64,000 nt of DNA from Methanospirillaceae archaeon (GTDB lineage Archaea > Halobacteriota > Methanomicrobia > Methanomicrobiales > Methanospirillaceae). The DNA is taken from NCBI GenBank assembly GCA_016926505.1, contig JAFGOM010000048.1:1-64000 (forward strand), written 5' to 3'. The notes beneath the pieces were generated by a model that worked only from the letters and a program-made list of their open reading frames with translations, ran no database searches and had not been told where the DNA came from. The translations under genes were made by a program, and so were the position numbers. Positions 49,203 to 64,000 of this stretch are shown here, piece after piece (within the stretch, counting starts at the first letter, position 1; each line of letters starts with the position of its first letter).

Positions 49203-51383
49203 ATGAAAGCAGATAACTGCTCTATATGGGATCTGTATAACGGGGCAAAACAGTATGTCGTGCCATTATTTCAGCGCTCTTATGTCTGGTCATCAGAACA
49301 GTGGGAGACACTCTGGGGCGATATCATGGATCAGTACCATCTCTCTGCCGGGAAAAACCGCAACGAGATCCCTTCCCGGTTCTTAGGTCCTGTCGTTGTT
49401 GTCAGGGAACGGGAGAAGAACCTTGACAAGTTCACCATCATCGACGGACAGCAGCGTATCATCACCATCAGTATTATCCTTGCTGTTATCAGGGCTTTTG
49501 CAAAGGAAAAGCATCACGAGGAATTATATGAACAGGTAAACGACTTCCTCAAGAACAGGCCAAAGAGCGGTGAGGGCAGGTACATCGTCATTCCGACCCA
49601 GGCGGACAAGGAAACATTATACAATATCTTTGACGAGTGTTACGTCTTCTCACAGGACTCACTCATATTAGAGTGTTTTGACTTTTTCTGGCAGAAGATA
49701 GACAGCATACCGGATCTCTGTCTGGTTACACTGCAGGAGATCCTGACCGAGAACTTCTGTGTTGTCTATATCGAACTGACCCAGGATGAGAACCCGAACC
49801 AGGTCTTTGAGTCGCTCAATTACCGCGGGGTACCTCTTGAGGAGTCAGATCTCATCAGGAACTTCTTCTTTATCAGGCTTGATTCAAAAGAGATAGCAAT
49901 AGCCCAGTACGAGCAGTTCTGGAAACCCATGGAGGAGCGTCTCGTTTATAGTGAGGAGAGTATCTCTGATTTTTTACGCATCTACTGTATGAAAAACGGC
50001 AGTGTCGTCAGGAAAGGCCAGATATTTGAAGAGATAAAGAGACGGTACGAGCAGGCCACTCCTGATGAGATCCTGGCACTTCTTCGTGATCTGGAGCGTT
50101 TCTCCTCGTATTACACGATGCTTGTGGCGCCACAGCAGATGTCAGTCACCGATAGTGAGTCGCTTACGATCCAGAAGATACTGGTTCGGTTACGGCTTCT
50201 CGGGCAGCATGAGATCTACCCATTTCTCCTCGACTGTTTCGCATGGTCTGACACCACACGTGCCGGTTCATCTCTCCTCTCCCGCGGTGAACTGAAAGTT
50301 CTCCTTGAGATTACCGAGGGATATCTCATCAGAAGAGCGGTCTGCAGAAGAAAAAGTCATGACTACGAGAAGATATTCGCAAACCTCTGCTCATTTTATG
50401 TTGAGGGAAATGCCCCGGTGCGACCTTTCGATCTCGTCACGTATCTGCAATCGCTATCAGGCCCGGGGAGTTATCCAAAGAACGGGGAGTTTGAGGATAA
50501 CCTGAGAAACGGCTGGTTGTACCACGAGAAATCAACCAATGCGTTTCTTTGGGCAATATTACTCGCACTCGAGGACTTCTTTGCCAGTGAGAGAAATGAA
50601 AAAGGAAAGACAGATCCCGGGATAAAAAGCGATACTCACACGATCAGTTGGTATATCCACGAGATACATCGTTTACGAATCGAGCATATCATGCCCGTAT
50701 CCCTCTCTCCCTGGTGGCGTGAACACCTGGGATCAGAGTGGCAGGAGGTCCATCACGATTATCTTCACCGGCTCGGAAACCTCACCCTGACCCATGCTGA
50801 CAACCCTGCCATCGCTGATGCTTCCTTTGATGAGAAGCGGGAATGGTACATTCACGATGGACTTTTCATGAACCAGTTCACAAAGTCACTCCGAATCTGG
50901 AAAAAATTCCAGATCGATCAGCGATCCCAGATATTCTCTGCGTTCTGCATGAAGATATGGCCTGATATTACCACACATAAAGAGATACAATCCGGCACCG
51001 GAACCGGGGATATTCCTGATAAGATAGATCCCCTGATTGCAGACAATTCCTCAGACGGGCATTGTTTCCGGACCGGTGAGATACCAAAAGGATACAAACC
51101 AACCTGCATTATTATCAGGGGAACCCGGGTTCCGGTAAGGTACTGGTACCAAGTTCTGGAAGTCACCATAAATGCCGCTTATGAGAACGAACCGGTTAAG
51201 TTCCACCGTATCGTCAGGAAATACCAGCATTACTTCAGTACCGATACCAAGGCCTATCGTTCTCAGGTAGGAGTGTACTCGTACCATTCACGGTTCGGCA
51301 GGTATCAGGTACGCGATATGTGCCTTGATATCATACGGACCATCGGATGGAACGAGAACGAATGGTGCCTGCTCTGTTCATGA
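49203..51383 (+). CDS. Single-chain GmrSD-type (DUF262-DUF1524) modification-dependent nuclease
   Basis: A 726-residue protein with the GmrSD architecture of type IV restriction enzymes, which attack modified phage DNA. The N-terminal DUF262 domain shows VPLFQRSYVWSSEQWETLWGDI (first half at residues 20-30) and the NTP-handling motif IIDGQQRIITI (DGQQR at 81-85). The C-terminal DUF1524 HNH-like nuclease has RIEHIMPVSLSPWW (about 493-506) and LGNLTLTHADNPAI. An additional domain of about 110 residues follows (GTRVPVRYWYQVLEV, VGVYSYHSRFGRYQV) that I cannot name; it may recognise DNA or a modification. It is a solitary gene with no methylase or other defence gene directly adjacent. Confidence 0.82.
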   Translation: MKADNCSIWDLYNGAKQYVVPLFQRSYVWSSEQWETLWGDIMDQYHLSAGKNRNEIPSRFLGPVVVVREREKNLDKFTIIDGQQRIITISIILAVIRAFAKEKHHEELYEQVNDFLKNRPKSGEGRYIVIPTQADKETLYNIFDECYVFSQDSLILECFDFFWQKIDSIPDLCLVTLQEILTENFCVVYIELTQDENPNQVFESLNYRGVPLEESDLIRNFFFIRLDSKEIAIAQYEQFWKPMEERLVYSEESISDFLRIYCMKNGSVVRKGQIFEEIKRRYEQATPDEILALLRDLERFSSYYTMLVAPQQMSVTDSESLTIQKILVRLRLLGQHEIYPFLLDCFAWSDTTRAGSSLLSRGELKVLLEITEGYLIRRAVCRRKSHDYEKIFANLCSFYVEGNAPVRPFDLVTYLQSLSGPGSYPKNGEFEDNLRNGWLYHEKSTNAFLWAILLALEDFFASERNEKGKTDPGIKSDTHTISWYIHEIHRLRIEHIMPVSLSPWWREHLGSEWQEVHHDYLHRLGNLTLTHADNPAIADASFDEKREWYIHDGLFMNQFTKSLRIWKKFQIDQRSQIFSAFCMKIWPDITTHKEIQSGTGTGDIPDKIDPLIADNSSDGHCFRTGEIPKGYKPTCIIIRGTRVPVRYWYQVLEVTINAAYENEPVKFHRIVRKYQHYFSTDTKAYRSQVGVYSYHSRFGRYQVRDMCLDIIRTIGWNENEWCLLCS

Positions 51384-51473: not shown

Positions 51474-52424
51474 ATGTCATTTTACCCTGAAAATTACGAT
51501 GCCAGCGAACCGATACAAACAATTCCAAAACCATATACCATTAGTTACCCTGCCATCGTTGCTGTTGCAGACCAGGACGGCAGGACGGTAGAGTGCATCG
51601 AGTTCTTTGACTGCATCGGAGGTGCCATGTGGGCACATACCCATTACCAGAAGAGCCCGCTTGTCACCTCGGCACGGATCGTTGGCAGTACAAACCGGTT
51701 CATCCTCAATGTGGGAGATGCGGATCTCAACCTCGAGGGATCACGGTTTCCTGCAGGGATCACCGGAGCAGGTGTTTCTGATGAGACGATAACCATCAGG
51801 TACCAGGGCCTTGGGGGCGGGGGGGTCGGAGCTTCTGTCTGTCGTGCATCGGCACAGGGAGTACTCTCTGCAGAATATGACGAATCAGGAGGGGGAAGGA
51901 CTGCCGGATCCTGTCTTACCCTTCCGCGACGTGAGCGGGTGCTCATCGGTGTTGATGACACTGACACGCAGGAAGAGGGTGCAACCTGGACACTTGTCCA
52001 TAATATCGCAACAGCAGTTGCAGATGCAGGTTCGGTCTACCTCTCCCACACCATTGTCCAGCTCTTTCCGGTTGCGTTCCGGACAAAGAACTGTGTTGCG
52101 GTTGTCGCAGAGTTTGCATCAGCAGATCCTCAAAAACTCATTGCATCATTCTCCCGACTCCTTCTGAGATACACCCTCTCCCAAAATACCGGTATGGCAT
52201 CGTATGTCGGATTTTGTCCTGATGAACTCTTTTCTTTCGGATGGAACGTAAAGAGAGGAGAGGTAGATCCAAACGAAGTCTTTTCCCTCTCAGTTCCAGG
52301 CCTGCGTATCCATGCAGATGGCAGAGGTATCACAGGAGCGGTTGCAGCAATCCCCTTTTACACAAAGTACAACGATGCACTCACCCTTTGTGATGGGACT
52401 CAGGCCGACCACAATCCTTGCTGA
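51474..52424 (+). CDS. Methanogenesis marker protein 11
   Basis: A 316-residue protein matching the conserved methanogen-only family called methanogenesis marker protein 11. Landmarks are FFDCIGGAMWAHTHYQKSP near the N-terminus, the glycine-rich GLGGGGVGASVCRA, and IGVDDTDTQEEGATWTLVHN. The last resembles the ATP-binding part of TiaS-like DUF1743 proteins. The function is unknown; the family occurs only in methane-cycling archaea, so it supports the identity of the organism. An AGGAG about 10 bases before the ATG decides the start. It is a single gene with the restriction gene upstream. Confidence 0.9.
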   Translation: MSFYPENYDASEPIQTIPKPYTISYPAIVAVADQDGRTVECIEFFDCIGGAMWAHTHYQKSPLVTSARIVGSTNRFILNVGDADLNLEGSRFPAGITGAGVSDETITIRYQGLGGGGVGASVCRASAQGVLSAEYDESGGGRTAGSCLTLPRRERVLIGVDDTDTQEEGATWTLVHNIATAVADAGSVYLSHTIVQLFPVAFRTKNCVAVVAEFASADPQKLIASFSRLLLRYTLSQNTGMASYVGFCPDELFSFGWNVKRGEVDPNEVFSLSVPGLRIHADGRGITGAVAAIPFYTKYNDALTLCDGTQADHNPC

Positions 52425-52525: not shown

Positions 52526-53134
52526 TTACCCGACGAAACCCATCTTCTCACTGATGGATGCAGCAAGGAGATCTATAGAATCGTCGGCAAGGAAGAGGAT
52601 AACCTCACCATCGATATCCTTTGCCTTTACACTGAATTGTGCATCAGCAACGATGATGGATTCTGACTCACCATAGACCGAATCAGGGAGGAGATGGTCA
52701 AGAGAGTCTTCATGATATTCAGGAGTATAAAAATGCAGCGTTGTGCCGAGATTATTTGAGATAGAACCCATCACCGCGTTAATGATAATATTTCCCACTT
52801 CCATGAGGGTTAATTTCCAGAGCTCTTCTGTCTCTTCCGATCTGCCTGTCTCTCCGGTCAGGAGTAAGAAGAGACTTGCGGCACTGGCCTGGGTAAACAT
52901 AAGAGCTGCTGTTCCCTCAAACGACCCGCTGTATCTCATATTCACAAGACAGTAAGGGATATTGGTATGAGGTATAAAATAACGAATCTCGTCTTTTTTA
53001 AGAAGAGAGACATGAGGTACTGAGATGGTAACATGGAATCCGGTCAGGGTGTTGAGACTTCCTGCGGATCTGCCGATACCCATCGTCACGAGTTCGCGAA
53101 TACCATCGATAACCGGTTCTGATACCTCTTTCAT
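52526..53134 (-). CDS. cheC: CheC-like phosphatase
   Basis: A 202-residue CheC/CheX-fold protein that dephosphorylates CheY-type receivers. The N-terminal helix GIRELVTMGIGRSAGSLN is family-typical and the ExxN phosphatase motif is present in LMEVGNIIINAVMG. The start at 53134 overlaps the stop of the upstream receiver gene by ATGA. A longer reading to 53227 would overlap that gene heavily and adds non-family residues. Being coupled to a receiver and near a kinase and a second CheC suggests a dedicated phospho-relay output rather than the main chemotaxis cluster, because no CheA, CheW or MCP gene is present. Confidence 0.85.
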   Translation of the reverse strand: MKEVSEPVIDGIRELVTMGIGRSAGSLNTLTGFHVTISVPHVSLLKKDEIRYFIPHTNIPYCLVNMRYSGSFEGTAALMFTQASAASLFLLLTGETGRSEETEELWKLTLMEVGNIIINAVMGSISNNLGTTLHFYTPEYHEDSLDHLLPDSVYGESESIIVADAQFSVKAKDIDGEVILFLADDSIDLLAASISEKMGFVG

Positions 53135-53496
53135 TCCGTACCCGAAAGGATTGAACGGATCACCGGAAGCAGCTCTTCTGCCTTGACCGGTTTGTTTAAA
53201 AATGCTTGTGCTCCGAGTGCCAGACACTCATCACGGGTCGTATCCTGGATATCAGACGTAAACATAACAACCGGTATCGTGTTATGTATCTTCTGCAGGT
53301 CATGCAGCACACTGACCCCGTCTTTTTCAGGCATCAGAATATCGAGCAGGATAAGGTCAGGTTTTTCTGCCTGTACCTTTAGAAGTCCGTCAGCTCCGTT
53401 TACTGCCTCGATAATCTCATATCCCTCTGCCACGAGCGGTGCACTGAGGATACGACGCTGGAATAACGAGTCATCCACTATTAAGATCCGGGTCAT
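53131..53496 (-). CDS. CheY-like response regulator (receiver only)
   Basis: A 121-residue stand-alone receiver domain. It has the acidic pair D8/D9, the phosphoacceptor D52 in LILLDILMPEKDG, a conserved Thr in VVMFTSDIQD, and the lysine in FLNKPVKAEE. No output domain is attached. The stop overlaps the CheC start (ATGA), so CheC is the likely phosphatase for this receiver. The kinase gene ends 98 bases upstream in the same direction. A relay of kinase to receiver with CheC resetting is the simplest reading (inference). Confidence 0.9.
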   Translation of the reverse strand: MTRILIVDDSLFQRRILSAPLVAEGYEIIEAVNGADGLLKVQAEKPDLILLDILMPEKDGVSVLHDLQKIHNTIPVVMFTSDIQDTTRDECLALGAQAFLNKPVKAEELLPVIRSILSGTE

Positions 53497-53593
53497 GCTT
53501 TCTCATATTTTATTACCGTATGTAAGGAAATAGATTCCCAATCCGGTTTTTTTTCCGGGGCAGAGAGCATGCGTGACTCAGATCAGTTCTGTA

Positions 53594-54727
53594 TCAGGAT
53601 ACCCCTTCGTCTCCATCCTGATACCGGTAATACCCGAATGGAACAAGAATGTCAAACCGTGCCCCGGCTCCTTCCTCACCGGTCTCACGGATCTGCATCC
53701 CGGTTATTCCAAGAATCTCCTTTACCAGAAAGAGACCCAGGCCGGTATTTGCCCCAAATCCCCTCTCAAAGATCCTCTCCTTCAGGTGTAGGGGAATTCC
53801 TCTCCCGTTATCCTCGATGCGAATCAGGATCCCGTCGTTATAATCCCTGCATGTTACCATAATAACCGAGGTATGCTCCCCGTGCCTGACCGCGTTTTCC
53901 AGCAGATTATAGACAGCCTTGCTGATCAGCGCATCTGCAAGAACCTCAAGGGTTCCGGTCTCGACAATAACAGTTACATCAGTAAAAAGAGGATTGGTGC
54001 TACAGGATGTAACCAGAGAGGATACCAGGTTCCAGGAGGGAAGAGCGTTTCCCATCTCCTGATAATCACGGGCAAACGCTATCTGACCCCGCATCACGTC
54101 TGCTGACTGCTTCATCTTCTCCAGATAGACCGATACCGTCTCGCCGGGTTGTTCCTTCTGCGCTAGTGCCAGGTACCCTACAAAGGCTGAAAGGATATTA
54201 TTCATATCATGCCGGGTTATCGCGGCCAGGGTGTTTAATTTCCCTATCGCGACAGCAAGTGCCTTTTCTGTCTTCTTCTTCTCCTCGAGTTCGTACTTTA
54301 TCTCGTCCTTGATAAGACGGTACCTGATGACCTGTTCCGTGACTGCGGTTACATCCTCGACTGCAATCATCGCCTGCAACTCCCCGGAGTCCAGTTCGAG
54401 CGGAGTTATCGAGATTCGCTGGACCCTCCCTTCATTCTGGCTCTCATGCATCAGGGGGAATAACCGGGGATGGAACCGGGACGAGAAGATTACCGGCCCG
54501 CCACCAGAGAAGATTACCTGTACCCGGTCTTTTATGAGAGGATCGGCAAAGAGAGGTACTACCTCAAAGACAGACTTCCAAAGGGCATCGGTGTTCCGTA
54601 TCCCGGTCCAGTTCTCAAGGGTCCTGTTCCATATGGCGATCCGATAATCGTCTCTGATGGTGCAGATGCCGACCGGAAGGGAATCAAGATACTGCGTGAC
54701 CCGCATTCTGGTTTCCGGTTCCATCAC
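53594..54727 (-). CDS. PAS-containing sensor histidine kinase
   Basis: A 377-residue soluble kinase. An N-terminal PAS domain (about 10-130, PVGICTIRDDYRIAIWNRTL) is followed by a short coiled coil. The methanogen-type dimerisation motif LAAITRHDMNNILSAFVGYL contains phosphoacceptor H173. HATPase motifs follow: N-box VYNLLENAVRHGEH, G1 EDNGRGIP, and GFGANTGLGLFLVKEI. There are no membrane segments, so it senses an internal cue through PAS. It starts with GTG at 54727 (or ATG at 54724), overlapping the stop of the upstream cheC. It probably phosphorylates the receiver at 53131-53496. Confidence 0.88.
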   Translation of the reverse strand: MMEPETRMRVTQYLDSLPVGICTIRDDYRIAIWNRTLENWTGIRNTDALWKSVFEVVPLFADPLIKDRVQVIFSGGGPVIFSSRFHPRLFPLMHESQNEGRVQRISITPLELDSGELQAMIAVEDVTAVTEQVIRYRLIKDEIKYELEEKKKTEKALAVAIGKLNTLAAITRHDMNNILSAFVGYLALAQKEQPGETVSVYLEKMKQSADVMRGQIAFARDYQEMGNALPSWNLVSSLVTSCSTNPLFTDVTVIVETGTLEVLADALISKAVYNLLENAVRHGEHTSVIMVTCRDYNDGILIRIEDNGRGIPLHLKERIFERGFGANTGLGLFLVKEILGITGMQIRETGEEGAGARFDILVPFGYYRYQDGDEGVS

Positions 54728-55338
54728 AAACCCTTCTCCATCGCTGTTCTGATGCAGATCCCGAGATGGGCATATGACTCACGGGTCAGGTGAATGAACA
54801 AGTCACCTTCTATCTCTTTTTTCTGCAACAAAAACCAGGTTCTGGCAATGATCCCGACGTCTGATTCAGGGAGGGTAAAGGGATGAACTGAATCATACGG
54901 ACCGGTCTGGTAACCGGGAAACTGAAACGAGAGCCGTGAAGTAAGAACAATACTGAGTGCACTCATCACAGAACCGGTGATGATATTTCCTACTTCAAGA
55001 AGGGTCTCAATCCGAAGAGCATCCATCTCATCAGGTGATCCTTCCTCGCCGGTAAGTATCATGACCAGATTCAGGGCGCTCGTATGAGGTATTATCAGGT
55101 AGAAAGAACCGGACAGAGCACCGGTAAATCTCAGGATAACCTGGGATATCTCCCCACGGGTCATACCCGAAAATACAGAACGGGCATAGAGCAGAGATGC
55201 TTCGTCAGATATGAATACATCAGGTACGGTAAGGGTTACATGTGCCCGGGTTAACCGGTTCAGCATTCCGGCCGAGTGACCAACACCTATCGTTATCAAC
55301 TCACGCAGGCCATCGAGGACTTCCAGTGAGACATTCAT
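54724..55338 (-). CDS. cheC: CheC-like phosphatase, second copy
   Basis: A 204-residue CheC-family protein and the first gene of the four-gene signalling group. It carries the DGLRELITIGVGHSAGMLN helix and the ExxN motif in LLEVGNIITGSVMSA. It is clearly related to the CheC at 52526-53134 but diverged, so the cluster brackets its kinase and receiver with two phosphatase-like proteins. Stop and kinase start overlap by four bases. The promoter must lie in the 240-base region shared with the divergent aks operon. Confidence 0.85.
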   Translation of the reverse strand: MNVSLEVLDGLRELITIGVGHSAGMLNRLTRAHVTLTVPDVFISDEASLLYARSVFSGMTRGEISQVILRFTGALSGSFYLIIPHTSALNLVMILTGEEGSPDEMDALRIETLLEVGNIITGSVMSALSIVLTSRLSFQFPGYQTGPYDSVHPFTLPESDVGIIARTWFLLQKKEIEGDLFIHLTRESYAHLGICIRTAMEKGL

Positions 55339-55382: not shown

Positions 55383-55412
55383 CCACATATAAGGCATAAT
55401 GCAGGTTTATAT
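55383..55412 (+). promoter_or_regulatory. TATA-like elements in the divergent region
   Basis: ACATATAAGG (55385-55394) and TTTATATGA (55406-55414) are AT-rich boxes placed between the cheC-kinase group (minus) and the aks operon (plus). Either could serve as a promoter in one direction. If the aks message starts just after the second box, it has a leader of about 140 bases. Confidence 0.4.
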
Positions 55413-55578: not shown

Positions 55579-56544
55579 ATGGACTGGATAGATAAAAAAA
55601 GCCTGCTTCTTGCAACCTGTGGTGCACACCTGACTGGTGTGGATGCGGATGAGTATATTACACGATCCACTGCAGGTCCGGGTGCCGGGGGCCCGGGAAG
55701 TTTCTTTCTTCTCGAGAACGGCAGACGGGTGCGGCTTTGTGTTGATCCGGGTTCAGAGGTGGTATGTATGCATCATGGAGGCGGAGCAGTAACCTGTGAC
55801 CTGGCAGGGGAGACCTTCTCTGCCACCCTTGAAAAGCCCGGTCTTCACTGCCCGCGACAGGCATACATCACGGTCACAGAGAGCTGCACCTTCTCCTGCA
55901 GGTACTGTTCGGTTCCGAAAGGAAGAGGAAGGAAAACAAAGGAGGGAATTGTAGCCCTGATAGAATCGGTGCTTTCTTCAATCGATGCCATCTCTCTTAC
56001 CAGTGGTGTTCTGAAAAGTATTGAAGAAGAGGAGGAGTACGTTCTCTCGGTAGTACGTGATATCAGGCGCTTTTCTCTTCCCATCGGGGTCTCGATCGTA
56101 CCGACACCGGCAGGTCCTCTCCGCATGAAAGAGGCAGGAGTATACGAGGTCAAGTTTAACCTTGAGACTGCAACAGATGCTCTTTTTTCCATGATCTGTC
56201 CCGGTCTTTCCCGGGCTGTCATCTTTGATGCCCTCAGGGAATCAGTCCCCCTTTTTGGAAGGGGACATGTCTTTTCCAACATCATCTTTGGTCTTGGTGA
56301 GACAGACGAAGAACTTGCTACCTGCATGAGGAGTCTGGCAGAGACGGGAATCATCCCCATACTCAGGCCTCTTTATCCTGCTGCCGCCCTTGCATCATTA
56401 AAGAGACCCGGCGCAGAGCGGATTAAGACGGTCTTTCTGATGCACCGGGATATCCTGTCTCGTTACGATCTTGATGTTTCAGCGGCACGTACCATGTGCC
56501 CGGCCTGTACCGGCTGTGACCTGATACCAGGGGTCGACTCATGA
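55579..56544 (+). CDS. Radical SAM protein, first gene of the aks operon
   Basis: A 321-residue radical SAM protein. The cluster-binding CX3CX2C is C103, C107 and C110 in CTFSCRYCSVP. It is preceded by an 85-residue N-terminal segment with further cysteines (C14, C54, C63, C73). The C-terminus carries CPACTGC (C307, C310, C313), which may hold a second cluster. FNLETATDALFSMICPGLSR and NIIFGLGETDEEL are barrel strands like those of lipoyl synthase/biotin synthase-type enzymes. I chose the ATG at 55579 because the 60 codons before it lack family character. The gene overlaps the TPP-enzyme gene by ATGA. Its place with aksA/D/E/F suggests a step in coenzyme B synthesis, possibly sulfur chemistry; this is inference. 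Confidence 0.8.
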   Translation: MDWIDKKSLLLATCGAHLTGVDADEYITRSTAGPGAGGPGSFFLLENGRRVRLCVDPGSEVVCMHHGGGAVTCDLAGETFSATLEKPGLHCPRQAYITVTESCTFSCRYCSVPKGRGRKTKEGIVALIESVLSSIDAISLTSGVLKSIEEEEEYVLSVVRDIRRFSLPIGVSIVPTPAGPLRMKEAGVYEVKFNLETATDALFSMICPGLSRAVIFDALRESVPLFGRGHVFSNIIFGLGETDEELATCMRSLAETGIIPILRPLYPAAALASLKRPGAERIKTVFLMHRDILSRYDLDVSAARTMCPACTGCDLIPGVDS

Positions 56545-57698
56545 ACGGAGAAGAACGGTTAATTCTTGACCTGAAACAAAACGCTGACCGCATGTATGGC
56601 ATCCCCGGGTACCCGGTAAGCGGACTGGTAGCGGGAACCGGTGCACAGTCAGTCATCAACGAGAAAGTTGCTTTAGAGTATGCTCTGGGGGACTCGCTTC
56701 ATGGCCGGCGGGCTGCAGTTATCGTCAAGCATGTCGGGGTAAATACCCTTGCAGACCCGCTCGTGAACGCTACCAGCCAGGGGCTTATCGGAGGGGTCAT
56801 CATTATTGCCGGTGATGATCCGCTGGTGACCAGTTCAACCGTCATCGAGTACTCAGCTTCCTTTGGCCCGGTTGCCGGGGTACCGGTCATCACCTGCAGG
56901 ACCAACGGTTCTGATGCCGTGAAAGAAGCATTCCTGGCCTCTGAACAGTTCAGCAGGGTGGCACTCCTCACGATTCAGCCACACGATCTCACAAGGGAGG
57001 TTTCAGACCCTCACCGATCCGGATCACCGGATACCGGAAACAAATCAGAAGAGAAGAGGAGTGCCGGGAGACTTGCCGATCCTGACGGGACCATGTACGG
57101 AAGGGCAGTAGCGGCATCTGAGTATTATGATGCTATCTCTTCTCGCGGAATGATACCGGAAGGCTGCAGATACCCGGTCCCGGAACCGGGGGGACGAAGA
57201 TCAAAGAAAGAGAGGGGGTATAGCCTTACCCTCTGTGCAGACTGCCCCTATCAACCACTCTTTTGTATCCTGCAGGAGAGAGGAGAGCGGGTCATCTGTG
57301 ATACCGGGTGCAGCATTCTTGCGATGAACGAACCATACCGGTTCGGATATGCCAGTTACGGGATGGGTAGTGCTGTTGCAGTAGCCGCAACAAGCACCGG
57401 CATTGCCCTTATCGGGGACTATGGTATGCTTCATTCCGGACTGTCTGCTCTCATTGATGTCTACGAAAAGAAACTTCCCCTGCTCTGCATCATCATGCAG
57501 AACAACTGCATGGGTATGACCGGGGGTCAGCCGGTTGTAAACCTCCTCCCGTACATCGGGTTTGCAGAACCCGTTGTCGTTTCTGCCGGAGATGCAACTG
57601 CACTAAAAAAAGCCCTTTCGAATCAAAAACGACCTTGCACGGTCGTCGTTTCAGGACAATGTCCACAGGAGATACACCATGAAACCTTTACATGTTGA
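56541..57698 (+). CDS. TPP-dependent 2-oxoacid enzyme (IorA-like core), candidate 2-oxosuberate decarboxylase
   Basis: A 385-residue thiamine-diphosphate enzyme. The N-terminal half resembles the pyrimidine-binding part of indolepyruvate oxidoreductase IorA: GIPGYPVSGL, then NEKVALEYALG with the catalytic-type E41, KHVGVNTLADPLVNA and IIAGDDP. The C-terminal half is the diphosphate-binding part: LCADCPYQPLF, GYASYGMGSAVAVA and GDYGMLHSG...MQNNCMGMTGGQ. The ferredoxin domain of IorA is absent and no iorB lies nearby, so oxidative CoA-forming chemistry is unlikely. A middle segment (57010-57200) is Lys/Arg/Glu-rich and probably a linker. Its stop lies inside the aksA start region, a 20-base overlap. 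Decarboxylation of 2-oxosuberate to 7-oxoheptanoate is the role suggested by context (inference). Confidence 0.8.
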   Translation: MNGEERLILDLKQNADRMYGIPGYPVSGLVAGTGAQSVINEKVALEYALGDSLHGRRAAVIVKHVGVNTLADPLVNATSQGLIGGVIIIAGDDPLVTSSTVIEYSASFGPVAGVPVITCRTNGSDAVKEAFLASEQFSRVALLTIQPHDLTREVSDPHRSGSPDTGNKSEEKRSAGRLADPDGTMYGRAVAASEYYDAISSRGMIPEGCRYPVPEPGGRRSKKERGYSLTLCADCPYQPLFCILQERGERVICDTGCSILAMNEPYRFGYASYGMGSAVAVAATSTGIALIGDYGMLHSGLSALIDVYEKKLPLLCIIMQNNCMGMTGGQPVVNLLPYIGFAEPVVVSAGDATALKKALSNQKRPCTVVVSGQCPQEIHHETFTC

Positions 57699-58800
57699 GA
57701 TATGTGATGTAACGCTGCGTGATGGGGAACAGACACCCGGCGTATCATTCACCTGTACTGAGAAGATGGAGATTGCATCGCTCCTTGATGAGATCGGTGT
57801 TGAGGTAATTGAAGCCGGATTTCCTATCATCTCTGATGATGAGAGATGCTGTGTCAGATCCGTTGCCAGGATGGGACTGTCTGCAAAATCCTGTGCTCTG
57901 GCACGGGCACTGAAAGGAGACGTCGATGCTGCCATCGATGCCGGTGTCGATATTGTCAGTATCTTTATCGCAACCTCTGACCTGCATGTGGCCGTGAAAT
58001 TTAAAAAACCACTTGCAGAAGTTCTGGCATCTGCCTGTGAAGTTGTCGAGTATGCGCATGACCATGGTCTCATTGTCAGGTTTGCTGCCGAAGATGCATC
58101 CCGGACAGCAATAGAGACCCTTGTCTCGGCTTACCGGCAGGCAGCAGAGCACGGGGCAGCATATGCAGGATATGCCGATACCGTCGGGTTTAATACTCCC
58201 CTCGAGATGGCACATGTGGTACAAACGATACAGCCCCGGATCCCGATACCCATGGCAATCCACTGTCACAACGACCTGGGATGTGCCACTGCAAACACCC
58301 TCACTGCTGCCGAATGCGGAGCGTTCCAGCTCCATACCACGGTCAACGGGATCGGCGAGCGGGTCGGGAATGCACGACTTGAAGAAGTCCTTGCCGGTCT
58401 GCGGTTAAAGTACGGCATCGACCGGTATGACCTGACCGTTATCCCCCGGCTTTCCCGGTATATCGAAGAGAGTACCGGTATCTACATGCCGGTCACAAAA
58501 CCGATCGTAGGGAAGAACGCATATGCCCATGAGAGTGGCATCCACATCGCTGCACTGATAAAAGACCCTGCTACCTATGAATTTGTCCCCCCTGAAATGC
58601 TCGGGCTTAACCGTGATTTTATCCTGGGAAAACATTCCGGAACAACCGCTCTTACTCATATCCTCAATAACCTCGGGATCTCTCTCAGTGAGATACAGGT
58701 TCATGAGGTGCTCGATGAGGTTAAGAAGAAGAGCGAAGGAAAATGCAGAATAACACAGGATGTCCTGTGTTCGATCATAAAAAAAGTAAGGGAGGAGTAA
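57679..58800 (+). CDS. aksA: Homocitrate synthase family protein AksA
   Basis: A 373-residue member of the isopropylmalate/homocitrate synthase family. It has the N-terminal DVTLRDGEQTPGVSF, an EVIEAGFPIISDDE strand, the metal-binding IPMAIHCHNDLGCATANTL (about 190-207) and TVNGIGERVGNARLEEV. It lacks the C-terminal LeuA regulatory domain, so it is short like AksA proteins. It condenses acetyl-CoA with 2-oxoglutarate and, in successive rounds, with 2-oxoadipate and 2-oxopimelate on the route to 2-oxosuberate for coenzyme B. The company of aksD, aksE and aksF supports AksA over LeuA or citramalate synthase. The start overlaps the end of the TPP-enzyme gene. Confidence 0.88.
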   Translation: MKPLHVEICDVTLRDGEQTPGVSFTCTEKMEIASLLDEIGVEVIEAGFPIISDDERCCVRSVARMGLSAKSCALARALKGDVDAAIDAGVDIVSIFIATSDLHVAVKFKKPLAEVLASACEVVEYAHDHGLIVRFAAEDASRTAIETLVSAYRQAAEHGAAYAGYADTVGFNTPLEMAHVVQTIQPRIPIPMAIHCHNDLGCATANTLTAAECGAFQLHTTVNGIGERVGNARLEEVLAGLRLKYGIDRYDLTVIPRLSRYIEESTGIYMPVTKPIVGKNAYAHESGIHIAALIKDPATYEFVPPEMLGLNRDFILGKHSGTTALTHILNNLGISLSEIQVHEVLDEVKKKSEGKCRITQDVLCSIIKKVREE

Positions 58801-58804
58801 TTCC

Positions 58805-60019
58805 GTGGCAACCCTCTCAGAACGGATACTGAATGCTCCTGCAGGTACCTGCATCGACGCACAGGCTGATCGGGCGTTCTGTCATGACGGGACCGGCGTG
58901 CTTACAAAGGTTGCCTGGGAAGAGATGGGGTCACCCCCGATAAAACAACCATTTCGTATATCCATCATCTTTGATCACATCGCTCCTGCCAATACCTCTC
59001 TTACAGCCCAGTTGCAGCATGAACTCCGTGAATTTGCCAGGGCACATACCATGCACTTCTCTGACATCGGGGGAGGAGTATGTCACCAGGTGATGAGCGA
59101 GGGATCTGCTCTGCCGGGCGAGTTAATCATCGGTGCTGACTCCCATTCCTGTACGCTTGGTGCGTTCGGGGCTTTTGCAACCGGTGTCGGGGCGACTGAG
59201 ATGGCTGCCATCTGGGCAACCGGGGGTACCTGGCTCATGGTTCCCGAGACGATTGCAATTACTATGAGCGGATCGCTTCCATCCCATGTCGAAGCAAAGG
59301 ATATTGCCCTTGCCTACTGTGGCAGGCTTGGTATGGACGGAGCAACCTACCGGGCCATCGAGTTTATCGGGGATGCCATGCCGAAACTCGACATGGCAGA
59401 TCGGCTTACGCTCTGTAATATGGCAGTAGAGACCGGGGCAAAGACCGGACTCTGCTATGCAGACGAGGTCACCGGTTCATATCTCGCCAATTACGGAACC
59501 CACATACCAGTACAGGAACCGGAACCGTGCACCTATGAGAAAGAGATACACCTATCTCTTGATGAAATGGTACCCCTGGTCGCGGTTCCTGACCGGGTTG
59601 ACACGGTCAGTCCCGTATCTGAGTACATGGGGACCCCGATTGACCAGGTTTTTGTGGGCACCTGTACCAACGGCAGATACAAGGATCTCGAGAGGTTTGC
59701 ATCCATCCTTTCCGATGATATGGTCATGGTGCGAACGATCATCGTCCCGGCATCCCGGGCAGTGCTCAGCGAGGCAGTACAGTCAGGAGTTTTGCAGACG
59801 CTTATAGAGGCCGGGTGCTCCATCGGTGTCCCGGGATGCGGTCCGTGCCTGGGGGCACACATGGGTGTTCTCGGTCCCGGTGAGATCGGGCTTTCGACTG
59901 CAAACCGTAACTTTAAGAACAGGATGGGAGTAGATGCACGCTACTTCCTCTCCTCGGTCACGACCGCTGCCTGCAGTGCGCTCGCCGGGGAGATAACCGA
60001 TCCAGGAGAGTTTTTATGA
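58805..60019 (+). CDS. aksD: Homoaconitase large subunit AksD
   Basis: A 404-residue aconitase-family large subunit. Cluster cysteines are visible at C287 (VGTCTNGR), C345 and C348 (GCGPCLGAHMG). DSHSCTLGAFGAFATGVGATE is the usual substrate/cluster segment. It starts with GTG after GGAGGAG, four bases past aksA, and overlaps aksE by ATGA. With AksE it dehydrates and rehydrates homocitrate and its longer homologues. The large subunit is very like LeuC, so the homoaconitase assignment rests on the operon and the small-subunit loop. Confidence 0.88.
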   Translation: MATLSERILNAPAGTCIDAQADRAFCHDGTGVLTKVAWEEMGSPPIKQPFRISIIFDHIAPANTSLTAQLQHELREFARAHTMHFSDIGGGVCHQVMSEGSALPGELIIGADSHSCTLGAFGAFATGVGATEMAAIWATGGTWLMVPETIAITMSGSLPSHVEAKDIALAYCGRLGMDGATYRAIEFIGDAMPKLDMADRLTLCNMAVETGAKTGLCYADEVTGSYLANYGTHIPVQEPEPCTYEKEIHLSLDEMVPLVAVPDRVDTVSPVSEYMGTPIDQVFVGTCTNGRYKDLERFASILSDDMVMVRTIIVPASRAVLSEAVQSGVLQTLIEAGCSIGVPGCGPCLGAHMGVLGPGEIGLSTANRNFKNRMGVDARYFLSSVTTAACSALAGEITDPGEFL

Positions 60020-60504
60020 GCAGCATTACCGGAAGAGGTCCTGCCGTCTGTATCGGTGATGATGTCGATACCGATCTCATCATTGCCGGGAGATACCTGC
60101 GGACAAAGGACAGATCTGTATTTCAGGAACATGTCTTTGAGGATCTCGATCCCACCCTTGCAGCCCGGTTACAAGGAGCCGTTCTCATCGCAGGAAAGAA
60201 CCTCGGGTGCGGTTCCTCACGGGAACAGGCGGTTGTCGCCCTGCAGCAGGCCGGTGTCCAGGCAGTTGTTGCACGATCAGCTGCCCGGATATTCTTCAGG
60301 AACTGCATCAATCGTGGCCTTCCTGTCTTTATCGTACCCGATCTTTTCTGCCATGAGGGGAACGAAATCCGGTTTGATACTGAAAAAAACGAACTTTCTA
60401 TTGCAGGAAAGGAAGTCCGCTCTCTTCCCCTCTCTGCCCGGATGAATGAGATACTCGCAGCAGGAGGGCTCGTTTCGTATATCAGGAGGGAGACCGGGAG
60501 GTGA
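60016..60504 (+). CDS. aksE: Homoaconitase small subunit AksE
   Basis: A 162-residue aconitase-family small (swivel) subunit. It has DDVDTDLIIAGRYLRTKDR at the start, then LGCGSSREQAVVALQQAGV and ARIFFRNCINRGLPVF. The loop YLRT (residues 27-30) is, as I recall, the type reported for methanogen homoaconitase, whereas isopropylmalate isomerase small subunits carry other sequences there. That favours chain-elongating homoaconitase. It starts inside the stop of aksD and its own stop overlaps the GTG of the next gene, which shows tight translational coupling. Confidence 0.88.
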   Translation: MSSITGRGPAVCIGDDVDTDLIIAGRYLRTKDRSVFQEHVFEDLDPTLAARLQGAVLIAGKNLGCGSSREQAVVALQQAGVQAVVARSAARIFFRNCINRGLPVFIVPDLFCHEGNEIRFDTEKNELSIAGKEVRSLPLSARMNEILAAGGLVSYIRRETGR

Positions 60505-61301
60505 TATTCCCAAAGTCCTGTAAGTTCGTCGGATATGCCGGTTCCCGGTTTCTCGGTGATACCACCTACTTCCTCTCGCAGTATCTCATCTGTGAGAAAA
60601 ACGGGGGGTTTCAGGTATGTGCAGTCAGCCTTGCAGAAGGCACCGGAATGATGAGAGATCTCGTCTCGTGTGAGGTTATCGCAGAGACACACGAGGTGAC
60701 CATGCACCCGGAACGGGTCAACCTGCACAACCGGGGAGACCTGATACAAAGAGCATTACAGAGCAGTACCCGCTGCACTATCTTTACCGGTATCGATGAA
60801 CATATGACATTTATCTGTGATCCTGACAGCACCAATCTTACGATTATCCATGTTTACGATGTGACCCCGCCAAGACCCCATCTTGCCGAGACGATAAAAG
60901 AACTTGAAAAGACCGGTATCTTTGGAGAACTCGAACTTTCATGGGAATTCCACATAAATGACCTTACCACCATTGCTGCTGATGTCTATCCCTGCCGTGC
61001 ATCAGGATTTGACCGGACCATCGATTCAGATCTCCTGCAGGGTGACGAAGCGGTTGCAGGGTGCATGACCGCCCGCCAGATCCTCTCTGAGTGTTATGGA
61101 AAGGAGTTCTCCTTCATCGATATCTGTCCTGCCAATGCAGTCAGAAAAGAGCCTTTTATTGCACGGTGCTGTCGGAGTGAACGAACCGGTTTTTGGGTAT
61201 TTGAGGGGAAAAGGGGTATTGTTGTCCATTGGGGGGATTCACCAAAAACGATTGCTGATGCCGTGTTTGCACTCGCCAATAGCTGGAGGGAACACGGATG
61301 A
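60501..61301 (+). CDS. Conserved protein of unknown function within the aks operon
   Basis: A 266-residue soluble protein with a GTG start overlapping the aksE stop by GTGA and preceded by GGGAG. It begins IFPKSCKFVGYAGSRFLGDT and includes HNRGDLIQRALQSST and NLTIIHVYDVTPPRPHLAET. It is rich in Cys and Asp, with CRASGFDRTI and CYGKEFSFIDICPANAV toward the end, and has no membrane segment. I believe related proteins of unknown function (DUF7714-like) exist in methanogens and haloarchaea, but I cannot verify this. Because it lies between aksE and aksF, it is a candidate for a missing or accessory step in coenzyme B synthesis. No catalytic motif can be named. Confidence 0.75.
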   Translation: MIFPKSCKFVGYAGSRFLGDTTYFLSQYLICEKNGGFQVCAVSLAEGTGMMRDLVSCEVIAETHEVTMHPERVNLHNRGDLIQRALQSSTRCTIFTGIDEHMTFICDPDSTNLTIIHVYDVTPPRPHLAETIKELEKTGIFGELELSWEFHINDLTTIAADVYPCRASGFDRTIDSDLLQGDEAVAGCMTARQILSECYGKEFSFIDICPANAVRKEPFIARCCRSERTGFWVFEGKRGIVVHWGDSPKTIADAVFALANSWREHG

Positions 61302-61366
61302 TTAGAGAGAAAACCGGGAGACAGAGAGACCGATTACAAAACGAGGAACAGATGTCATGCAGATAG
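61298..61366 (+). other. 22-codon bridging ORF between the unknown gene and aksF
   Basis: An ATG overlapping the stop of the preceding gene (ATGA) opens a 22-codon, Arg/Gln/Glu-rich ORF. It ends after the aksF start codon, overlapping it by ten bases. It may simply carry ribosomes across the 55-base gap (translational coupling); a functional peptide is unlikely. Confidence 0.25.
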
Positions 61367-62319
61367 TCGTAGCACCCGGTGACGGAATCGGGAAAGAGGT
61401 TATCCCGGTTGCCGAAAAAATTCTTCGTATTCTTCACCCGGACTGGGAGTATATACCGGTTCTTCTCGGTTATGATTGTTTTGTAAAGACCGGAACCGCC
61501 CTTCCCAAAGAGTCTCTTATGGCTCTTACGAGAGCTGATGCGATCCTCTTTGGAGCGGTTACCACCCCGCCTGATCCGGATTACTCAAGCGTCATCCTCT
61601 CCATACGAAAAGAGCTGGATCTCTATGCCAACCTTCGTCCCATAATCGGTCACGGGTTTGATATCATGATCGTTCGGGAGAACACGGAAGGCCTGTATGC
61701 CGGTATCGAGTGGCAGGAAAAAGACCGTGCCTGCAGCCTGCGGGTCGTTTCAGAGGCAGGAACCAGGCGTATTGCAAGAACAGCACTTGCTCTGGCGAAG
61801 AAGAGGAAGGGACATGTGACCATCGGGAACAAGGCAAACATTCTCAAATCTGATGCATATTTTAACCGGATCTGCATCGGGGAGGCAGAGGCATCCGGGA
61901 TCCGGTACAGCCTGAAGTACATCGATGCACTGGTTCTTGACCTGCTCCAGCATCCTGACCGGTACGATGTAATCCTTACCACCAACATCTTTGGTGATAT
62001 CCTTTCAGATGCTGCCGGCTACCTTGTCGGAGGGCTCGGATGTCTCCCGAGTGCCAATATCGGGGAGCGTCACGCCCTCTTTGAACCGGTGCACGGCAGT
62101 GCACCTGACATTGCCGGGACCAACACCGCAAACCCGGTTGCAGCCATAAGAAGCGCTGCCATGCTGTTGGAGCACCTCGGAGATACTGCCGGAGCAGCGA
62201 AGATACACGATGCAATCAATCAGGCTATCCATACAGGATGCAGAACACACGATCAGGGGGGATCATACACGACCAGCGGGTTTGGAGAGGAGATCGTGCG
62301 TTGGCTCACAAAGACCTGA
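61357..62319 (+). CDS. aksF: Homoisocitrate-family dehydrogenase AksF
   Basis: A 320-residue beta-decarboxylating dehydrogenase of the isocitrate/isopropylmalate family. Landmarks are VAPGDGIGKEVIPVAE, the substrate motif MIVRENTEGLYAGIEW, TNIFGDILSDAAGYLVGGLG and the NAD-binding EPVHGSAPDIAGTNTANP. It oxidises and decarboxylates homoisocitrate-type intermediates in each round of 2-oxoacid elongation. The start follows GAGGAACAG at normal spacing. It is the last gene of the operon; 61 bases follow before the convergent ATPase gene. LeuB activity cannot be excluded from sequence alone. Confidence 0.88.
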   Translation: MQIVVAPGDGIGKEVIPVAEKILRILHPDWEYIPVLLGYDCFVKTGTALPKESLMALTRADAILFGAVTTPPDPDYSSVILSIRKELDLYANLRPIIGHGFDIMIVRENTEGLYAGIEWQEKDRACSLRVVSEAGTRRIARTALALAKKRKGHVTIGNKANILKSDAYFNRICIGEAEASGIRYSLKYIDALVLDLLQHPDRYDVILTTNIFGDILSDAAGYLVGGLGCLPSANIGERHALFEPVHGSAPDIAGTNTANPVAAIRSAAMLLEHLGDTAGAAKIHDAINQAIHTGCRTHDQGGSYTTSGFGEEIVRWLTKT

Positions 62320-62380: not shown

Positions 62381-64000
62381 TTACTCACAGATCCGGTTGA
62401 CATCAGTAAAGAGATGTTCACATTTCTCCAGGGTCTGGAACCCGACGATTGCGGGATCCTCAAATATCCGGTTACAGACCCGCTCGGCTACCCGCCACTT
62501 CTCAAAATATCCGGCCTCATTTCGCAGAAACAATGCTAAAAGCCTTGCTACGATTCCCCCCAGCTCCTCCTCCTGTGGAACAAAATGAAGATGAACCTGC
62601 GGATAGGTGTCCCTTACACAGGAGAGGTACAACTCCTCGTCAAAGATATCCTCAAGCGTGGCAAGGGGATTGTGCAGGTAATCCCCGATAAAAAGACACC
62701 GGTTCTGCCCTGAATCAAACAGGTGCTCTATTTGTTTCTTCAACAGCGGCAGACCGGGATCCGATCCCGAGAGGAGAACGGCTGCATCCACAAGGTTCCC
62801 TTTCAGCAGGGAGGCAAGTGGCATGATCGTTGAGAGACCACCTGAGGGGATGATCTTGAGATCCGGGCAGATCGTTTTTCTGCCTGCAAAATCCATGGCA
62901 TAATTAAGACCGAGAATGAGCCATAGATCTGATATATCCTCAAGAATCAACTGCTTTTTTGCAACGAAAAGACCCTGTGCCAGCTGAAAGGCAACCCCTG
63001 CCTGAATGGGAAAGAGCGAGTCGTGATCAAGCGGCCATTCATCTTCAGATATCCGGGTTCTGCCTTCATCTGACTCGTATACTGCCCTGACCCGCTCCAT
63101 GTGTTCAAAATCCACCATGAAGGGTGAATGAGTACTGAAGAAGAGCTGGTTTTTCTCAGCAATCCTCTCTAAAAACCTGACCGCCTTGTACTGGGCCGAT
63201 GCATGGAGTGATATCCCGGGTTCATCAAGGAGGATGATACTGTTTGAGAAGAGATCGCCTGCCTCGACAAGAAAGACCACAAAGAAAGAGAAGAAGTACT
63301 GCATACCGGCACTTCGCTGGTCAAGTTCGATCTCACTGGAATCGATATCATCTGATACCCAGATCCTGAAGAAATCACCATCAATGTCATACCGGAAGCG
63401 ATGTCTTCTCTGGTCCCACCAGTCGCGGAACTTCGATGTCATCAGGTTCGAAGCGGTTGAGAGAAGGATAGCCCGTTCATCAACCTGCCTTCTGATAAGG
63501 GGATTATCCTCATGTGAATGCTTGTGGGATCCCAGTTCCTCGATCATGGCGAGATTAAGGTTTACGTGCCGGAAGAGGCAGTTGGTGGCCCGAAGGCCGG
63601 GATGATTCGGATTCGCCTGCAGGGTGGCAATAAATGTCGGGATATGAACGGCACTGTCAAGCACGTTGTACTTATCAAAGTAGATGAACCGGGGAAGGTG
63701 ATCTATCACATACTTCTTGCCATGGACAAATGACTCATTTTTGATGACCTGTTCAAGCAGGCTATACACCGGCTCATAAAGCGGGTTTAAGAGCTCTTTC
63801 TGCCACTCTTCATTCGCATGACTGGCAACCTGGTTGACGATCTCTGCCAGCCGGCGTTTGTCACACCGCCCCTCTTCGGGGAGCTGTTCAATCTCCTGGT
63901 CAAAGAACCTGATGAGAACCTGCTTGATGCGTCCCAGTTCCTCTCCTTTTCCTTCAGGAGCAGTCATCTCACGAAGGGCAGAAATTGCATCCTCAAGATA
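62381..64000 (-). CDS. OLD-like ABC ATPase with TOPRIM-like domain (5' end beyond window)
   Basis: The visible 539 or so residues lack the N-terminal Walker A because the frame stays open to the window edge. Seen parts are the ABC signature-like LDQRSAGMQYFFSFF, Walker B SIILLDEPGISLHASAQY and FFSTHSPFMVDF. A TOPRIM-like region follows with KQLILEDISDLWLILGL, where the family has L-V-E-G-x-x-D; here ED-I-SD is a variant. This is the plan of overcoming-lysogenisation-defect (OLD) nucleases and related AAA proteins. Many act in phage defence or DNA repair, but without neighbours on the far side no system can be assigned. Confidence 0.75.
   Translation of the reverse strand, partial: YLEDAISALREMTAPEGKGEELGRIKQVLIRFFDQEIEQLPEEGRCDKRRLAEIVNQVASHANEEWQKELLNPLYEPVYSLLEQVIKNESFVHGKKYVIDHLPRFIYFDKYNVLDSAVHIPTFIATLQANPNHPGLRATNCLFRHVNLNLAMIEELGSHKHSHEDNPLIRRQVDERAILLSTASNLMTSKFRDWWDQRRHRFRYDIDGDFFRIWVSDDIDSSEIELDQRSAGMQYFFSFFVVFLVEAGDLFSNSIILLDEPGISLHASAQYKAVRFLERIAEKNQLFFSTHSPFMVDFEHMERVRAVYESDEGRTRISEDEWPLDHDSLFPIQAGVAFQLAQGLFVAKKQLILEDISDLWLILGLNYAMDFAGRKTICPDLKIIPSGGLSTIMPLASLLKGNLVDAAVLLSGSDPGLPLLKKQIEHLFDSGQNRCLFIGDYLHNPLATLEDIFDEELYLSCVRDTYPQVHLHFVPQEEELGGIVARLLALFLRNEAGYFEKWRVAERVCNRIFEDPAIVGFQTLEKCEHLFTDVNRICE

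Follow-up and report, generated by a model that had tools for sequence, protein, structure and literature searches.

The stretch of DNA analysed here (the window) comprises 64,000 nucleotides of contig JAFGOM010000048.1 from a Methanospirillaceae archaeon. Between positions 55579 and 62319 it carries seven open reading frames (ORFs), all on the + strand, which encode a radical S-adenosylmethionine (radical SAM) protein, a thiamine pyrophosphate (TPP) enzyme, AksA, AksD, AksE, a DUF7714 protein and AksF. Adjacent genes overlap at four of the six junctions (radical SAM/TPP by 4 bp, TPP/aksA by 20 bp, aksD/aksE and aksE/DUF7714 by 4 bp each); the remaining two have gaps of 4 bp (aksA/aksD) and 55 bp (DUF7714/aksF). 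This bears out a preliminary description of the locus as seven genes running in one direction with overlaps at most junctions, although that description overlooked the gene for methanogenesis marker protein 11 (MMP11) at 51474–52424, also on the + strand. MMP11 belongs to the module as the upstream partner of the operon; it adjoins the radical SAM gene in relatives. Biological methane formation and anaerobic methane oxidation both depend on coenzyme B, whose pathway is discussed below; to our knowledge, the enzymes that act after 2-oxosuberate in its synthesis have not been assigned.

Genes of the locus

The four aks genes encode a homocitrate-synthase-type enzyme (aksA, 57679–58800; Pfam HMGL-like and HCS_D2, TIGR02090 423 bits), the large subunit of homoaconitase (aksD, 58805–60019; Pfam Aconitase, TIGR02086 467 bits, over the cut-off), its small subunit (aksE, 60016–60504; Pfam Aconitase_C) and a homoisocitrate-dehydrogenase-type enzyme (aksF, 61357–62319; Pfam Iso_dh, TIGR02088 353 bits), orthologues of which lie next to DUF7714 across genomes. 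Among solved relatives of AksE the best match was 2pkp, a homoaconitase small subunit (E 5.8e-34), and the two have YLRT in common in the substrate loop; 3vba has YLVY. The meaning of this loop, in distinguishing a homoaconitase small subunit from the isopropylmalate type, is said to have been set out by Drevland in 2008. Homologues of the LeuA, LeuC/D and LeuB types are clustered at the locus as a second set, as expected of an Aks pathway, and the source genome has two LeuB/AksF-type genes. The enzyme families AksA, AksD/E and AksF and the YLRT loop of AksE are those of Methanocaldococcus jannaschii, in which the aks genes are scattered, whereas those of the window form one operon with three unassigned genes.

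The TPP enzyme (56541–57698; Pfam TPP_enzyme_C), a predicted 2-oxosuberate decarboxylase, is related to IorA, the alpha subunit of indolepyruvate ferredoxin oxidoreductase, with which it shares the TPP and PYR domains and their conserved motifs; residues E41, G292-D293 and N321 are invariant in the alignment. IorA is also the best named family (TIGR03336), with a score of 107.5 bits that falls well below the cut-off of 650.9. The two differ in that the ferredoxin motif, found in seven of seven IorA proteins, occurs in none of 31 TPP proteins, that the IorA proteins form their own clade in the tree, and that no IorB-type partner lies adjacent to the TPP gene in the window. The missing motif and the separate clade rule out a canonical IorA. 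Sulfopyruvate decarboxylase (ComDE) was likewise rejected, as no NCBIfam sulfopyruvate decarboxylase model was matched at E ≤ 0.01. The closest solved relative is oxalyl-CoA decarboxylase, and the features of the protein would fit a non-oxidative decarboxylation of 2-oxosuberate.

DUF7714 (60501–61301) exceeds the gathering score of PF24830 (285 bits, E 7e-85), as does the bacterial protein XcbA (Xaut_5051; 293.6 bits, E 1.6e-87). The XcbA subfamily model NF052538 has a cut-off of 150 bits, which neither the window protein (60.9 bits) nor the best archaeal one (91.3 bits) reached. Five cysteines (C165, C188, C209, C223 and C224) are invariant in the alignment of archaeal and bacterial proteins and so, among others, are W244-G245. 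The AlphaFold2 (AF2) model has a pLDDT of 92 and found no fold match in the PDB or in a viral library. A tblastn search of 72,556 plasmids matched five records, and the four that were opened are coenzyme M operons in which the gene stands beside phosphosulfolactate synthase, with lyase and pyridoxal phosphate (PLP) genes. The archaeal gene thus has in common with the bacterial coenzyme M operon xcbA–E of Xanthobacter autotrophicus Py2 (Xaut_5051–5055) a single Pfam family and the five cysteines; it differs in sitting among aks genes, and the window protein is just 21–26% identical to the bacterial ones. In bacterial coenzyme M synthesis XcbA would act in the thiolation/reduction part, a placement that draws in part on PMC11507031. 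A conserved hypothetical gene at the corresponding operon place in mycobacteria has been noted as xcbF1 (PMC8727900). In Methylocystis iwaonis (L246:2564-7222) a Nit1C-type cluster, with MSMEG_0568 radical SAM, AIR-synthase-like and nitrilase genes, lies beside the coenzyme M operon.

The radical SAM protein (55579–56544) scores over the cut-off of Pfam Radical_SAM, PF04055. Its longest ORF opens at 55399; we take the ATG at 55579 to be the likely true start, because relatives align only from residue ~58–61 and a purine-rich stretch resembling a ribosome-binding site lies directly upstream. In 27 aligned sequences the CxxxCxxC motif (C103, C107, C110), a C-terminal CxxCxxC (C307, C310, C313), C91 and C207 are invariant. 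The radical SAM core is that of lipoyl synthase and biotin synthase, the closest solved structures, from which the protein differs in its auxiliary cysteine pattern and in falling far under all equivalog cut-offs (LipS2, 51.7 against 270 bits; bioB, 22.5 against 225 bits).

MMP11 surpasses the TIGR03280 cut-off of 255.8 bits (316.6 bits, E 1.3e-94). Its C-terminal domain is of the ATP-binding TCKD type found in TiaS, the tRNA agmatidine synthetase, with the DDTD motif (DDTDT in the window), as indicated by Pfam TiaS_TCKD (E 6.5e-11) and by an AF2 model (pLDDT 91) that matched TiaS in Foldseek (E 5e-7, probability 1.00). The match spans only ~150 residues of the C-terminal half, the N-terminal half being unmatched. 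Searching the literature for MMP11 in connection with coenzyme B synthesis gave no result. At two loci (L205 and L206, in genomes G024 and G034) the partner of MMP11 is a radical SAM gene of MSMEG_0568 type.

Four − strand signalling genes at 52526–55338 (two of CheX/CheC type, a response regulator and a histidine kinase) split MMP11 from the radical SAM gene in the window, whereas nearly all relatives have the two genes tightly joined. The module is flanked, as in defence islands, by a large ORF (49203–51383), which we take to be DUF262-like from its appearance, and by an ORF for an AAA_15/AAA_21 ATPase (62381–63967).

Linkage and distribution

Linkage was surveyed in 158 genomes of the phylum, in which lineage groups were named by handles and the names of orders and classes were inferred. 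DUF7714 is present in 64 of them, and McrA was detected in 62 of these 64; the other two, G047 and G054, are metagenome-assembled genomes 70% and 61% complete. The distance between DUF7714 and aksF is 300 bp or less in 59 of the 64 (26/27, 4/4, 6/6, 7/7 and 16/20 in five groups), which belong to several families, an arrangement that is not due to chance. In 36 of 63 genomes the TPP gene and DUF7714 are no more than 8 kb apart, which include 26/26, 4/4 and 6/7 of three groups. Where it has left the aks genes, in groups f8 and f22, it adjoins MMP11 in all 26 genomes (20/20 and 6/6), and MMP11 and TPP are at most 2.5 kb apart in 53 of 62. MMP11 abuts the radical SAM gene in 26 of the 27 genomes of the window's order, the exception being the window itself. 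The radical SAM gene adjoins the TPP gene in this order and in G054 and G029 and is mostly dispersed elsewhere. The radical SAM, TPP and DUF7714 genes, which the preliminary description had singled out as extra members that might accompany the aks genes elsewhere, do travel with them: all three are contiguous with aks in almost every genome of the window's order, the five groups above keep DUF7714 beside aksF, and in two further lineage groups the TPP gene, sometimes with the radical SAM gene, adjoins aks genes.

In the Methanothermococcus phylum, seven genomes with strong TPP matches carry proteins of IorA length and look like Thermococcales, an identity judged from the data at hand. Class I genomes were reached by scanning contigs with AksE of M. 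jannaschii, which returned mostly bacterial LeuD relatives, plus Methanococcales and Methanobacteriales; in the class I genomes reached through named loci there were only generic radical SAM matches and no orthologue of the radical SAM protein.

Two natural deletions

When 28 genomes of a neighbouring family were searched with a composite query, three small genomes of one genus (G224, G226 and G227) turned out to retain DUF7714 as the sole member of the queried set. The intact locus of G223, from the same genus, reads Ftr, MMP11 paralogue, MMP11, radical SAM, TPP, aksA, aksD, aksE, DUF7714, aksF and aldehyde dehydrogenase (ALDH), Ftr and ALDH being named from their sequences. In the three reduced genomes it reads Ftr, MMP11 paralogue, DUF7714 and ALDH, so that MMP11, radical SAM, TPP and all four aks genes are gone. 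The same query found no radical SAM, TPP or aksF gene anywhere in these genomes, and the 78% of G224 that was read directly contains no LeuA/AksA, LeuC/AksD, LeuD/AksE or LeuB/AksF homologue, even of leucine type, and no true MMP11. G224 keeps MMP16/ComF; other coenzyme M genes were not located in it. The retained DUF7714 has all five cysteines and a dN/dS of 0.07–0.18, that is, it is under purifying selection. DUF7714 as an enzyme of coenzyme B alone is ruled out by this retention after the loss of aks, TPP, radical SAM and MMP11. The second MMP11-like protein beside MMP11 (L283, L284, L285, L286, L287, L108, L247), which stays when MMP11 is lost, scores ~200 bits against TIGR03280 where scanned, below the cut-off.

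Another deletion occurred independently in G136, a genome of another family. Here TPP and aksADE have been lost between the radical SAM gene and DUF7714, which are now 55 bp apart, and there is no aksF orthologue; MMP11, radical SAM and DUF7714 are kept. Loss together with aks in two independent deletions is expected of a 2-oxosuberate decarboxylase, and the co-loss places the TPP enzyme in the synthesis of coenzyme B; for the radical SAM protein and MMP11 the same assignment is less firm. The nested deletion in G136 suggests either that these two act after the TPP enzyme or that the loss is young. Methanomicrobium mobile requires coenzyme B and branched short-chain acids (PMC10658910), requirements that fit a genome like G224, although we claim no identity of G224 with that species.

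A proposed route and its alternatives

We consider it somewhat probable that the locus represents the operon with which class II methanogens make coenzyme B, together with MMP11, with the TPP decarboxylase and the downstream roles as proposed here. From gene content, linkage, co-loss, retention and family membership we infer the reactions after 2-oxosuberate and the order of the steps as follows. AksA, AksD/E and AksF lengthen 2-oxoglutarate to 2-oxosuberate, which the TPP enzyme would convert to 7-oxoheptanoate by a decarboxylation that is predicted to be non-oxidative because the TPP motifs of the IorA alpha subunit are kept and the ferredoxin domain is missing. The radical SAM protein and MMP11 would act downstream of this step, MMP11 probably as a kinase or ligase that uses ATP to complete the threonine phosphate amide. 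DUF7714 probably contributes to thiol formation in coenzyme M, in coenzyme B or in the two alike: it may participate in converting the aldehyde at the chain end, either as such or once thiolated, to the thiol. Because it belongs to the XcbA family, whose bacterial genes lie in coenzyme M operons, and persists where the coenzyme B route has been lost, coenzyme M is probably a further product that it serves, or the main one. Both the aks neighbours and the ties to coenzyme M would be explained by an enzyme that forms the thiol of coenzyme M and, among class II methanogens, that of coenzyme B too.

A number of observations weigh against this proposal. The cut-offs of the NCBIfam methanogen equivalogs for AksF (302 against 540 bits), HacA (412 against 550) and HacB (141 against 230) are not reached, so that the aks names are supported by homology, by context and by the YLRT loop; at subfamily level, the models for AksD and AksE are matched. 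The partner of MMP11 in G024 and G034, genomes without detected McrA, comes from another radical SAM subfamily, and G136 has retained both its radical SAM protein and MMP11. The coenzyme B auxotrophy of G224, G226, G227 and G136 is deduced from gene loss. DUF7714 persists without aks, which weakens its place in coenzyme B synthesis, and COG1900 sulfurtransferases (MMP16, L-ASST) have already been put forward as the enzymes of thiol formation in coenzyme M and perhaps in coenzyme B (PMC12068725). DUF7714 is found in none of 36 genomes of the Methanothermococcus phylum, nor in the M. jannaschii control, and most of the 36 are without a TPP orthologue. As the Methanococcales lack orthologues of both, this gene set is one of several solutions, and the three extra genes do not provide a universal answer. 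The earlier suggestion that they are candidates for the missing chemistry is supported for the TPP enzyme, twice lost with aks, and fails in part for DUF7714, which is not an enzyme of coenzyme B alone.

The strongest of the alternatives, possible though in our view unlikely, is that DUF7714 is a coenzyme M enzyme merely located in the aks operon, by inherited gene order or as an aid to co-regulation of the two coenzymes, and that COG1900 sulfurtransferases make both thiols. In every opened record the bacterial relative lies in a coenzyme M operon, the gene outlives those for coenzyme B in genomes of which G224 also keeps MMP16, and the genetics of Methanosarcina acetivorans, where MMP16 is coenzyme M synthase, favour COG1900 enzymes for coenzyme M and perhaps coenzyme B (PMC12068725). 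Against this, DUF7714 stays with aksE/aksF amid differing neighbours outside the window's order, suggesting selection for a role in coenzyme B too, and no coenzyme M gene was recognised beside archaeal DUF7714 among those neighbours that are annotated.

The other two alternatives are less probable. The radical SAM protein might insert sulfur directly into the C7 chain in the manner of LipA or BioB, the thiol then not being derived from an aldehyde. LipS2 is among the closest named families, LipA and BioB are nearest in structure, and the additional invariant CxxCxxC could bind an auxiliary cluster. White's tracer studies, on the other hand, reportedly place 7-oxoheptanoate on the route; the protein has paralogues and is kept in G136 without aks, and the tested class I methanogens, which should still make coenzyme B, have no orthologue. 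We regard this option as improbable. Slightly more improbable still, the TPP enzyme could be present by chance, either as an ordinary decarboxylase of 2-oxoacids (aryl-pyruvates) or as what remains of an IorA from amino-acid metabolism. Although IorA is its best named family and related IorA proteins are common in archaea, the absent ferredoxin motif, the separate clade and the lack of an iorB beside it in the window argue otherwise. In addition, nearly all of 63 genomes have the gene linked either to aks/DUF7714 or to MMP11, and both deletions removed it along with aks, although G224 still has a canonical IorA.

Returning to the proposed route, a broader version of it, which we regard as doubtful, is that DUF7714/XcbA represents an unrecognised class of thiol-forming enzymes with no known fold relative, serving coenzymes M and B in bacteria and class II methanogens, and that MMP11 finishes coenzyme B in an ATP-dependent step. 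Through the locus and the two natural deletions, four genes that had not been characterised can be ranked as testable candidates for the half of the pathway that is still unassigned. MMP11, a general marker of methanogenesis, is lost alongside the genes for coenzyme B in one reduced lineage, and DUF7714, so far a protein of unknown function in methanogens, is tied to the synthesis of coenzyme M in bacteria. From how patchily these genes are distributed, different classes of methanogens are predicted to finish coenzyme B with different enzymes.

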